Shown: piece after piece, positions 42,248-47,076 of the stretch
Layout: every line of letters starts with the position of its first letter
How positions within the stretch are numbered: the first letter of the stretch is position 1
From: Rhodopseudomonas palustris
GTDB taxonomy: Bacteria; Pseudomonadota; Alphaproteobacteria; Rhizobiales; Xanthobacteraceae
Reading direction: 5' to 3'
Assembly (NCBI GenBank): GCA_016215605.1
Contig: JACRJB010000024.1
Coordinates: 1-64,000 of the forward strand
DNA length: 64,000 bases
The notes under the pieces: model-generated
Databases searched by the model: none
Told to the model about the DNA's origin: nothing
What the model saw: only the letters and a program-made list of their open reading frames with translations
Position numbers and translations under genes: made by a program

Positions 42248-44191
<1,944 letters not shown>

Positions 44192-44223: not shown

Positions 44224-44574
44224 TCAGGGCTTCGCGGCGATCTTGCGCGGGACGTGATGCACAATCATCTCGCCGTCGGGGCAGACGCTGCGCTTCACCT
44301 CGGCGAGCACGCGGTTGAAATCCATCTCCGGGTTGCACAGCAGGACGTCGAGCAGCAGCAGCCGGTATTCCGGCCACGTCGTCAGCACGATGTGCGACTC
44401 GGCCAGAAACAGCGCGATCGTCAGCCCGTGCGGGACGTAACGGACCTCGTAGGAGCCGATGATGGTTGCGCCGACGCTCTGGACCGCGGCCCTCGCCGCC
44501 GCTACCAAGGCGGCTTCATCCTCGATCAGCGGCAGGCAGTCGTACATTTCTGCCAGCGCGTGGGTCATCAACAT
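44224..44574 (-). CDS. S-adenosylmethionine decarboxylase-like proenzyme (SpeH type, divergent)
   Basis: A 116-residue protein resembling the small class 1B AdoMet decarboxylases, which self-cleave to create a pyruvoyl group and supply decarboxylated AdoMet for polyamine synthesis. The cleavage site E59-S60 in LAESH is present, as are TWPEY and C80. Two residues needed for processing in the characterised Thermotoga enzyme appear changed: Ser55 corresponds to T52 and His68 to T65 (ESHIVLTTWPEY). So it may process slowly, differently or not at all. It diverges from a BpsA-like synthase gene 104 bp away, its presumed user of decarboxylated AdoMet. Confidence 0.78.
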   Translation of the reverse strand: MLMTHALAEMYDCLPLIEDEAALVAAARAAVQSVGATIIGSYEVRYVPHGLTIALFLAESHIVLTTWPEYRLLLLDVLLCNPEMDFNRVLAEVKRSVCPDGEMIVHHVPRKIAAKP

Positions 44575-44678
44575 CGGCGGTCGGTCCTCGATGGCGGTTC
44601 AGTTGCGGCGCCTGTTTGGCACGGATAGCGGCGCGGGCCAACCGCGGCCCGGCCCGTTGTGGTGCGGGGTGCCGCGCC

Positions 44679-45830
44679 GTGGCTGAGCCCGCGATCCTGC
44701 AGGTGGTCGCCGAGGCGACCCGGCTACGCGAAGGCCCGGCCGGCGTCGCCGCGATCCTGCGCGCGGTGTATCGTGCCGGCTCGCTGCGGCTGCAGGATGC
44801 CGCCCGCGAGGCGCGGCTGCCGATGCCGATCGCCACCGCGGTCCGCCGCGAGCTGGAAAAGGCCGGCCTCCTGGAACGCAAGCAGGGCCTGGCGCTGAGC
44901 CCGGAGGGCCGCGACTTCGTCGAGCGCGAGCTCGGGCTCGGCATCACCATCGACCTCACCTGCCCGACCTGCTCGGGCCACGGCGTGGTGATCCCGGAGA
45001 ATTTTCAGGCGCAGGTCGCGCGGCTGGCCGCGATCATCGCCCAGGCGCCGTCGGTCGACGTCACGCTGGATCAGGCGCCGTGCACGCCGGAGACCTCGTT
45101 GCTGCGGGCTCTGCTGATGCTGCGGGCCGGCGCGCTGGAGGGCCGCCGCGTGCTGCTGCTCGGCGACGACGATTCGGTGTCGCTGGCGATCGGCCTGGTC
45201 GGCCAGGCACTCGGCAAAGGCGACCTCACCCGCGGCGTGACGGTGGTCGACGCCGACGAGCGCCGGCTCGCCTTCCTGCGCGACAGCGCCGCCCGCGAAG
45301 GCCTCGCGCTGCGCACGCTGCATCACGATCTGCGCCAGCCGCTTCCGGCCGAGCTGCGCGGCGCATTCGACACCACCGAAACCGACCCGCCCTACACGCT
45401 CGAAGGCGCCACGCTGTTTCTCACCCGCGGCCGCGAGGCGCTGGCCGGCGACGGGCTGTGCTACTTCTCGTTCGCGCAATGGCCGCCGCGGCAGATGCTG
45501 GCGCTGCAGCGGGTGTTTCTCGATCTCGGCCTCGCGGTGCAAACGATCCGGCCCGGCTTCAACGCCTATGCCGGCGCCACCGTGCTCGGCAATGTCGGGC
45601 AGCTGATCGAACTCGCCGCCGCCGGGCCGGCCACCGCCGCGCTGCCGGCGTGGCAGGGACCGCTGTACACCGCCGAAATCAATCCGCGGGTCCGCGCCTA
45701 TGTCTGCACCGAATGCGGCCGCGAGGCCGTGCTCGGGCGCGGCTCGACGCCGGAGACGATCGAGGCATTGAAGGACCAGGGCTGCGCGAATTGCGGCGGG
45801 CACAGCTTCCGCCGCAAGACTGGCGGCTAG
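44679..45830 (+). CDS. BpsA-like branched-chain polyamine synthase (DUF43)
   Basis: A 383-residue member of the DUF43/BpsA family. Characterised archaeal and thermophile members add aminopropyl groups from decarboxylated AdoMet to spermidine, giving branched polyamines. An N-terminal winged helix (about 15-85) is followed by CPTCSGHG, then the AdoMet-binding Rossmann core with LLLGDDDSVS (159-168) and TDPPYTLEG (235-243). A C-terminal zinc-ribbon-like tail has C343-x2-C346 and C369-x2-C372. I chose GTG 44679 because no ATG fits the frame. The upstream divergent AdoMet decarboxylase-like gene supports a polyamine role. The family is best known from thermophiles, so its product in this organism is open. 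Confidence 0.82.
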   Translation: MAEPAILQVVAEATRLREGPAGVAAILRAVYRAGSLRLQDAAREARLPMPIATAVRRELEKAGLLERKQGLALSPEGRDFVERELGLGITIDLTCPTCSGHGVVIPENFQAQVARLAAIIAQAPSVDVTLDQAPCTPETSLLRALLMLRAGALEGRRVLLLGDDDSVSLAIGLVGQALGKGDLTRGVTVVDADERRLAFLRDSAAREGLALRTLHHDLRQPLPAELRGAFDTTETDPPYTLEGATLFLTRGREALAGDGLCYFSFAQWPPRQMLALQRVFLDLGLAVQTIRPGFNAYAGATVLGNVGQLIELAAAGPATAALPAWQGPLYTAEINPRVRAYVCTECGREAVLGRGSTPETIEALKDQGCANCGGHSFRRKTGG

Positions 45831-45965: not shown

Positions 45966-46433
45966 ATGACCGACAAGCCCCTGCACACGCTGCGCCCGCT
46001 GGAGCGCGCGGATCTTGAGAAGATCGGCTGGATGGAGGCCGAGATCGCCAAGATCTCGTTCCCGGACGATCCGATCACCGACGTCGGCTTCTACGTGAAG
46101 AAGCTGGAGAAGCTGTTCGGCGACAAGGAAGCCGCGACCTTCGTCGCCGAGCGCGACGGCGAGATCGTCGGCTGGTCCTATGTCAGCATCCGCCGCAACT
46201 TCATCACCAAGCAGCCCTACGGCGATTATCACTCGATCTACATCGACCCGTCGCAGCGCGGCTCGGGCCTGTCGAACCTCTTGATGAATGCGGTGTTCGA
46301 CTGGTGCAGGGCGCAGGATCTCGGCCACGTCGTGTTTCGCACCCGCGCCACCAACGAGCCGATGAAGGGCGTGCTGGCGCGCGTCGGCTTCGTGCCGACG
46401 CAGATCTATCTGGAAAAGCCGCTCAAGGATTGA
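45966..46433 (+). CDS. GNAT family N-acetyltransferase
   Basis: A 155-residue GNAT enzyme. The acetyl-CoA-binding motif is YIDPSQRGSGLSNLLM (a Q/RxxGxG/A form), preceded by strands AATFVAERDGEIVGWSYV. It transfers an acetyl group to an amine; the substrate is unknown. It follows the BpsA-like gene by 135 bp on the same strand, and polyamine acetylation is one possibility, but nothing in the sequence specifies it. Its last 11 bases overlap the convergent rsmJ-like gene. Confidence 0.85.
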   Translation: MTDKPLHTLRPLERADLEKIGWMEAEIAKISFPDDPITDVGFYVKKLEKLFGDKEAATFVAERDGEIVGWSYVSIRRNFITKQPYGDYHSIYIDPSQRGSGLSNLLMNAVFDWCRAQDLGHVVFRTRATNEPMKGVLARVGFVPTQIYLEKPLKD

Positions 46434-47076
46434 GCGCGGCGTCGGCGCCCGTCGCCGCGTCGTCCGCCGCGCGCGGCTGGACGAACACGTCGTAGCGGAC
46501 CGTCTTGCCGACGATCTGATAGGACGGCTTGCGGACGCAGGCGAGCGGCTCGGCGCGCAGCGGCCATTTCAGCACGACGCGGCCGCAACGCGCGGCCAGT
46601 GCCGCCTGCATCAATTCGCAAACGTCCGGATCGGCGCCGACCAGATCGCGGAGCAGCCGCATCTCCTGCTTGACCAGCGCCGTCTTGGTCCGCTCCGGAT
46701 GCATCGGATCGACGGTCACGACGTCGGCCTGCAATGTCGGCAGCAATTCGCGCGCATCGCCGTGCAGCAGCGTCATCCGCGCGACGGTCGCGGCGAGCTC
46801 GGCGCTCTCCGCCTGCGCGGCGGCGAGCCCTTGCGCCAGCAGCGCGTGAACCTGCGGCGAGCGCTCGATCAGCGTCACCGTCGCGCCCATCGAGGCGAGC
46901 AGGAAGGAATCGCGGCCGAGCCCCGCGGTGGCGTCGATCACCTGCAGCGGACGGCTGGGTGAGACGCCGACCGCCTTCAGCAGCGCGTGGCTGCGCGCCG
47001 CCCCGGTCCGCAATTTGTAGCCGACCGCGCCGCCGACGAAATCGACGGCGAGCGCGGGCCGGCCGGCTTTGGCCAT
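46423..47076 (-). CDS. 16S rRNA methyltransferase RsmJ-like
   Basis: A 217-residue class I AdoMet methyltransferase. Motif I is VIDATAGLGRDSFLLASMG and the catalytic region reads VTVDPMHPER, the pattern of RsmJ, which methylates a guanine (m2G1516 in E. coli numbering) of 16S rRNA. It begins 4 bp after the degP stop and is the last gene of the hflK-hflC-DUF2065-degP run. Its C-terminus overlaps the convergent GNAT gene. Confidence 0.85.
   Translation of the reverse strand: MAKAGRPALAVDFVGGAVGYKLRTGAARSHALLKAVGVSPSRPLQVIDATAGLGRDSFLLASMGATVTLIERSPQVHALLAQGLAAAQAESAELAATVARMTLLHGDARELLPTLQADVVTVDPMHPERTKTALVKQEMRLLRDLVGADPDVCELMQAALAARCGRVVLKWPLRAEPLACVRKPSYQIVGKTVRYDVFVQPRAADDAATGADAALNP

Follow-up and report, generated by a model that had tools for sequence, protein, structure and literature searches.

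A candidate module for aminopropylated, acylated homospermidine around a BpsA-family gene of mesophilic Alphaproteobacteria

A stretch of Rhodopseudomonas palustris DNA (hereafter the window: the whole 64,000 nucleotides analysed, positions 1 to 64,000 of the forward strand of contig JACRJB010000024.1, assembly GCA_016215605.1, within a 5.8-Mb genome) contains a gene for a divergent homologue of S-adenosylmethionine (AdoMet) decarboxylase (AdoMetDC), named P0002 (44224-44574, minus strand), that lies head-to-head with a gene for a BpsA-family aminopropyltransferase homologue, P0001 (44679-45830, plus strand), after which comes a gene for a GNAT acyltransferase, P0003 (45966-46433, plus strand). 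These three genes are read here as a compact biosynthetic module of mesophilic Alphaproteobacteria that would make aminopropylated, probably branched, acylated homospermidine, a reading to which we give even chances because it is built on gene content and residues alone. The trio is described by its protein families, folds, linkage, co-occurrence, residue conservation, purifying selection and gene content, and we infer each activity, the acceptor, the branching, the acylation and the physiological role.

In the proposed pathway, P0002 would cleave itself at E59/S60 to generate a pyruvoyl group and would then form decarboxylated AdoMet (dcAdoMet), with Thr65 or another residue standing in for His68 of the Thermotoga maritima enzyme. 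The BpsA-family enzyme would bind dcAdoMet at its GDDD/TDPP site and pass the aminopropyl moiety on to a polyamine acceptor. In the window organism this acceptor is likely the triamine sym-homospermidine, and the likely product an aminopropylated, probably N-branched, homospermidine. An amine of this product would be acylated by the GNAT protein, the acyl group being perhaps acetyl in Rhodopseudomonas and perhaps, in Aurantimonadaceae, a glyceryl group loaded on a carrier protein by FkbH. It is less likely than not that the cluster is the core of an unrecognised family of such polyamine-conjugate pathways in mesophiles with all these particulars, i.e., an AdoMetDC without His68 that self-processes by an altered mechanism, a BpsA in which a metal ribbon takes the place of the acidic carrier tail, and a GNAT that acylates branched aminopropyl-homospermidine with acetyl or with glyceryl from FkbH and an acyl carrier protein (ACP). 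The enzyme kinds are known. The variant, for which the literature searched gave no description, would bring a pathway of thermophiles to mesophiles, with both key enzymes altered and, in one family, an unexpected extension by an acyl carrier.

The gene bpsA is called thermophile-restricted in passages of Fujiwara and Fukuda 2026 (PMC12979288) and of a second recent paper from the same group. A mesophilic BpsA branch with its own decarboxylase makes this view directly testable in easily grown strains, and ideas on where branched polyamines occur and on their purpose may need rethinking. A decarboxylase with Thr at the place of His68 also raises the question of how pyruvoyl enzymes self-process without this His, and the version with FkbH and a carrier protein points to a polyamine-derived metabolite for which no matching literature was found. 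In the openly licensed literature, a scope that does not amount to proof of absence, no paper on an alphaproteobacterial BpsA homologue or cluster was recognised; the term BpsA is absent from the main texts of PMC11107197, PMC9992855 and PMC11999265, nothing was found on FkbH with an aminopropyltransferase or on glyceryl-ACP with a polyamine, and the literature on Aureimonas and polyamines held nothing relevant by title and abstract start.

The BpsA-family protein and its linked partners

P0001 (383 residues) begins with a GTG codon at 44679, a start supported by its use in relatives, and its stop codon is at 45828-45830. An earlier note on this DNA, made from the sequence alone, had called it a DUF43/BpsA-like synthase with GDDD at residues 162-165 and a TDPPYT motif, and Pfam, PDB sequence and fold matches place it in the BpsA family far above chance level. 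The protein matches Pfam BpsA_C with an E-value of 3.6e-41 (141.4 bits, cut-off 27; profile positions 5-186 of 243) and solved BpsA sequences with E about 2e-29, its PDB sequence relatives at the thresholds used being Thermococcus BpsA, Thermus BpsA and a Pyrococcus homologue. A fold search with an AlphaFold2 model built with 27 clade members (predicted local distance difference test (pLDDT) 83.9) ranks these chains in the first nine places (E 5.6e-24 to 8.3e-22; template modelling (TM) scores of 0.50-0.55 by query length), and the high root mean square deviation of these matches is probably due to domain arrangement.

The GDDD motif (45162-45173, plus strand), a putative dcAdoMet site, is invariant in 29/29 aligned rows, as are D236, P237, P238, Y239 and T240 of the TDPPYT motif (residues 235-240; 45381-45398, plus strand), in which D236 aligns with Asp225 of Tk-BpsA. 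Fujiwara and Fukuda 2026 (PMC12979288) describe the Tk-BpsA residues and also a cluster of acidic residues at the C-terminus as carrier of the aminopropyl group; the residues were mapped through a HMMER alignment in which chain numbers equal Tk numbers plus 20. Equivalents of Asp159, Asp160, Asp225 and Tyr290 are invariant in 29/29 rows, and Tyr316 falls past the end of the P0001 alignment; the conservation of the motifs DVTLDQAP and ETDPPYT[LF] is partly built in, the same patterns having been used to collect the relatives. The two C-terminal CxxC pairs noticed earlier, a candidate zinc ribbon, make up a four-cysteine ribbon, C343xxC346 ... C369xxC372 (45705-45794, plus strand), all four Cys of which are invariant in the 29 rows; a third CxxC is C95xxC98. 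P0001 resembles the thermophile BpsA (EC 2.5.1.128) in its BpsA_C domain, fold, N-terminal winged-helix-like region, GDDD, TDPP and Tyr290 equivalent, and differs from it in its mesophilic hosts, in a four-Cys ribbon instead of an acidic tail, in the lack of a Glu259 equivalent and in having SpeD and GNAT partners of its own. We assign it to a separate branch of the BpsA family, here called ribbon-tailed. By its anatomy it probably works like BpsA, and it is not a proven BpsA, the label "BpsA-family" being preferred because the acidic tail described for Tk-BpsA is missing here.

A scan of named genomes with the patterns DVTLDQAP and ETDPPYT[LF], which misses relatives without these patterns, returned 27 loci from Rhodopseudomonas, Bradyrhizobium, other Xanthobacteraceae, Bradyrhizobiaceae or Hyphomicrobiales metagenome-assembled genomes (MAGs), Aurantimonas, Aureimonas, Mangrovicella, Rhodothalassium and one Chloroflexia MAG, the closest named relative being in Rhodopseudomonas pseudopalustris DSM 123 (92% BpsA identity). 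The named genera with a ribbon-tailed BpsA, as distinct from the MAGs, are mesophilic, with members from soil, plants and ponds. BpsA_C is rare among the relatives of the window genome. Within the same GTDB family it was matched in 10/198 genomes at E <= 0.001, 9 of them over the cut-off; seven of the nine are of the ribbon-tailed type (G000, G003, G005, G050, G068, G108 and G141) and two of another kind (G067 and G160). The order gave matches in 5/397 genomes (4 over the cut-off), with G928, besides the window, carrying the same trio, and the class in 13/387, where the two over the cut-off are the window genome and one at 27.5 bits (cut-off 27).

The comparison of linkage covered 31 distinct BpsA loci, namely those of the window, G108, G050 and G928 and the 27 of the named-genome scan (L012, L014, L016, L017, L153 and L154 duplicate other loci). 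Homologues of both P0002 and P0003 share a contig with BpsA in 29/31 of them (the GNAT gene of L042 is cut by the locus end, and the partners in L037 and L041 were read in L153 and L154), so that the GNAT gene pointed out downstream by the earlier note is a regular companion of the pair; the genera with the trio are Rhodopseudomonas, Bradyrhizobium, Aurantimonas, Aureimonas and Mangrovicella. Two loci lack the linked partners. One is that of Rhodothalassium (L033), with an ordinary SpeD and SpeE elsewhere in the genome; the other, in the Chloroflexia MAG, is L043, on a contig that stops immediately past the BpsA gene, and an ordinary SpeD is encoded elsewhere in that MAG. Gene order varies: SpeD (-), BpsA (+), GNAT (+) in most Xanthobacteraceae-type loci, GNAT (+), SpeD (-), BpsA (+) in L031 and L032, and BpsA (+), ACP (-), FkbH (-), SpeD (-), GNAT (+) in Aurantimonadaceae, with extra DNA between BpsA and ACP in L037, L041, L042 and L046. 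Preservation of the linkage across such rearrangement argues for a shared function; a single early transfer of the cluster would also explain part of it, and in the Xanthobacteraceae-type loci part of the GNAT linkage could be plain synteny with an rsmJ-like rRNA methyltransferase gene (46423-47076 in the window, convergent to the GNAT gene) that lies near the GNAT gene in most of these loci. None of the four BpsA-less genomes of the same genus that were tested has any SpeD. The ratio of nonsynonymous to synonymous substitution rates is 0.07-0.14 for all three genes (Nei-Gojobori; the window, L013 and L017, which are close relatives), which are under purifying selection.

A decarboxylase homologue with Thr at the place of His68

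P0002 (116 residues; ATG start codon at 44574, minus strand) is of the SpeD/SpeH type, and the open reading frames, the AdoMet_dc family match and the fold bear out the earlier description of a head-to-head pair outside thermophiles. It matches Pfam AdoMet_dc (E 5e-20, 72.3 bits, cut-off 25) and scores 56.9 bits against the NCBIfam model SAM_DCase_Bsu (TIGR03330), under the cut-off of 75.65; the best fold match of its model (pLDDT 92.0) is the T. maritima AdoMetDC (TM 0.79-0.83). E59, S60 and C80, which the earlier note had seen to be kept, are invariant in 24/24 aligned members, down to 50% identity, together with W67, P68 and E69, and Pro48 is likewise invariant. The E59-S60 codons (44395-44400, minus strand), the predicted self-cleavage site and pyruvoyl-forming Ser, align with E62-S63 of T. 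maritima.

At the places of Ser55 and His68 the protein has T52 and T65 (T65 codon, 44380-44382, minus strand). Both are invariant in 24/24 members of the family alignment that had been suggested as a check, and Thr is aligned with T. maritima His68 in 29/29 linked homologues (28 distinct sequences of one alignment, the window sequence included, and one read separately), as against 0 of 62 PF02675 proteins outside the clade. His occupies this position in 33/33 proteins of a canonical set, which is biased to typical sequences because it combines L047-L049 with the 30 top scorers among the 164 class genomes that passed the cut-off. A second outside set of 29 proteins has 26 His, 3 Tyr and no Thr; it was drawn from 24 mostly low-scoring or multi-copy genomes (32 matches, 30 as loci, 29 readable), and the residue was judged by eye, five places past the Ser, 12 proteins without the ESH motif being placed by eye. 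Of the two replacements singled out as unusual in the earlier note, that of His68 is therefore diagnostic, whereas Thr for Ser55 is common elsewhere (3/33 of the canonical set, several of the 29 others). In a tree built from 60 rows, among which L078-L080 do not differ over the stretch used, one branch (support 100/100) separates all 27 T65 rows from the rest; the program warned of long branches.

P0002 is like the class 1b AdoMet decarboxylase of T. maritima (TM0655) in fold (TM about 0.82), in the E62-S63 and C83 equivalents and in the WPE motif, and unlike it in its clade-wide Thr for His68 and in its score under the NCBIfam equivalog cut-off. S63, H68 and C83 are named as essential for AdoMetDC self-processing in the part of Li et al. 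2023 (PMC10407285) consulted. Among these processing and catalytic residues P0002 has the Ser and the Cys, with Thr for His68, and it is hence labelled an AdoMetDC homologue; the missing His does not exclude that it works like an AdoMetDC. That the divergent SpeD does not act on AdoMet or is not processed, the pair using another donor or another substrate, is unlikely, although it draws on the 29/29 Thr, on the separate clade with its long branch, on the low NCBIfam score, on the ordinary SpeD that stands alongside in G003 and on the FkbH and ACP genes that adjoin SpeD in Aurantimonadaceae. Against it speak the invariant Ser60, Glu59, Cys80 and WPE motif: Ser60 would probably not have survived in a dead proenzyme, and processing of P0002 thus probably persists by a changed route. 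Moreover, P0002 is the sole dcAdoMet source found for BpsA in the window genome, where BpsA and SpeD each occur once and a further AdoMet decarboxylase was not found.

A SpeD in a genome without SpeE is also the anomaly by which the pyruvoyl arginine and ornithine decarboxylases SpeDA and SpeDC were found, according to passages of Li et al. 2023 (PMC10407285), and P0002 shares with these a divergent SpeD and a host without SpeE. It is very improbable, however, that P0002 is such a neofunctionalised ornithine or arginine decarboxylase feeding polyamine synthesis. A pyridoxal phosphate (PLP)-dependent decarboxylase of the ornithine/arginine/diaminopimelate type is present in the window genome, whereas the anomalous-SpeD genomes described in that source lacked SpeA and SpeC; Pro48 and Pro68 are invariant, and the Pro that marks true AdoMetDC in the same source is probably one of these. 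Linkage to BpsA and GNAT, and Thr at the position of a His68 that the authors of PMC10407285, as far as seen, expected to be kept, also set P0002 apart from SpeDA and SpeDC, and the constant partnership with BpsA better suits a supplier of dcAdoMet, the role given to P0002 in the module proposed above. Three weak AdoMet_dc-family proteins seen besides (L178, L179 and L180, from G544, G533 and G481) have Tyr at the His68 place and no ESH motif, and are unlike both canonical SpeD and the SpeD of the window type.

Candidate acceptor and acyl group

The window genome has no match to PF01564 (SpeE, spermidine synthase) at E <= 0.001; it has a single homospermidine synthase, which matches the solved enzyme with E 6e-257. 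The PLP decarboxylase mentioned above lies about 2.4 kb from the homospermidine synthase gene; it scores 188.1 bits against the diaminopimelate decarboxylase model, under the cut-off of 297.9, the true LysA being separate, and is read as a probable ornithine decarboxylase. Since homospermidine synthase is present and a SpeE match is absent, the natural acceptor should be homospermidine or putrescine, and spermidine, which the earlier note had taken as the substrate to be assayed, is unlikely in this genome. A use of homospermidine in R. palustris is described in the part of PMC7857480 consulted, namely in the siderophore rhodopetrobactin, and a siderophore is another possible use of acylated homospermidines.

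A ribbon-tailed BpsA that simply replaces spermidine synthase would make linear spermidine from putrescine, the GNAT protein then being a spermidine acetyltransferase. We consider such a replacement rather unlikely. In its favour, PF01564 is not matched in G000, and of 19 BpsA-bearing genomes tested 7 have no SpeE match and 10 a weak one (E 4e-14 or weaker), i.e., none or weak in 17/19; the acceptor side of the site also differs from that of thermophile BpsA. The other two genomes, G003 (1.7e-55) and Rhodothalassium (1.5e-48), hold a ribbon-tailed BpsA alongside a strong SpeE match, and the relatives of P0001 with known activity are branching enzymes in the account given in the part of PMC12979288 seen, both of which speak against such a replacement.

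The making of an aminopropylated homospermidine is favoured by the report that aminopropylhomospermidine is the major polyamine of Rhodothalassium salexigens (Hamana et al. 2001, as cited in a passage of PMC11999265), whose genome holds a ribbon-tailed BpsA (L033), a coincidence that is suggestive only. Other observations weigh against the module as proposed. Rhodothalassium has a SpeD and a SpeE of the ordinary kind and no divergent SpeD linked to its BpsA gene, so that it may not owe this polyamine to BpsA, and its SpeE could be the source of the linear isomer. G003, a MAG with 6% contamination, pairs the divergent SpeD/BpsA with an ordinary SpeD and SpeE; the homospermidine-synthase domain searched was matched in neither G003 nor Rhodothalassium, and hosts may thus differ in their acceptor. 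Tk Glu259 is not kept and aligns with Pro269 in P0001, and the ribbon-tailed rows lack the acidic C-terminal run and have scattered acids and the four-Cys ribbon instead; with Glu259 and the acidic cluster missing, acceptor or mechanism may differ from those of Tk-BpsA. Around this position most Xanthobacteraceae-type rows have Gln or His, and 12/12 Aurantimonadaceae have Asp at 267, two positions ahead, lineage differences which suggest that acceptors may differ between lineages. His68, held essential for self-processing, is absent from the linked decarboxylases, and in G050, G068 and G199, which are Xanthobacteraceae and have the trio, FkbH is encoded away from the cluster.

The acylation step would fall to P0003 (155 residues), which matches Pfam Acetyltransf_1 (E 1.9e-15, 57.6 bits, cut-off 20.7). 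Solved structures that it matches at E <= 0.001 (best 4.5e-4) are an unnamed protein or belong to the phosphinothricin and nourseothricin types, and the 10 NCBIfam matches listed at this threshold include no polyamine acetyltransferase. In 12/12 Aurantimonadaceae loci (tblastn), ACP and FkbH genes adjoin the SpeD gene, and in L045, whose FkbH scores 178.8 bits (curated cut-off 146.65), the reading frames overlap by four bases. FkbH-type enzymes are glyceryl-ACP enzymes of polyketide clusters. The Aurantimonadaceae protein is like them in having an FkbH domain over the curated cut-off beside a carrier protein, in this family only, and unlike them in adjoining polyamine genes; it has one partial match among solved structures. 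Its position with ACP beside SpeD is a hint that the polyamine may be acylated and not free. Neither gene was seen in the other 18 loci of the neighbourhood comparison within the stretch covered, and the window genome has no FkbH match; 11 of 23 genomes searched have one, i.e., the 8 Aurantimonadaceae searched and the three Xanthobacteraceae just named. A radical-SAM gene lies 3' of the GNAT gene in some Aurantimonas/Mangrovicella loci (L034, 10216-11358; L039, 10422-11411; also L046, L153 and L154), where it may be part of the cluster.

Flanking sequence and other BpsA_C proteins

The divergent start codons are separated by a 104-bp spacer (44575-44678) in which, over 9 sequences compared, no motif is conserved past close relatives except the start of the decarboxylase gene; promoter and terminator scans gave no signal above shuffles. 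A gene for a PAS-domain sigma-54 activator (42248-44191) ends just ahead of the decarboxylase gene. It was dropped as a candidate regulator of the pair, being absent at a 45% identity filter from the 36 loci of the neighbourhood comparison, which overlap and represent 30 distinct BpsA loci besides the window.

Three further origins or roles were set aside. A scan of viral contigs with the BpsA alignment found no relative, and phage SpeD matches (8 records) are 31-35% identical. Plasmid carriage yielded a single weak match (36.8% identity over 53% of the query), and for anti-phage defence P0001 has only a weak local match to the mad2 model (8.6e-6).

The BpsA_C proteins of the other kind found in the family (L008, 1-3777, from G067; L009, 1-3750, from G160) are different and shorter, and come without SpeD. 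Their gene lies between an ATPase/kinase-like gene (AAA_17 in L008) and a gene for an unknown protein of 193 residues, with a further open reading frame of about 200 residues on the opposite strand; PADLOC matches to mad2 are weak, and the arrangement looks like a mobile island or a defence-type cassette. In three genomes of the class sample (G212, G329 and G411, family f6), an ordinary SpeD gene has, at a distance of about 1 kb and on the opposite strand in all three, a BpsA_C match that stays under the threshold and is perhaps another aminopropyltransferase-like partner.

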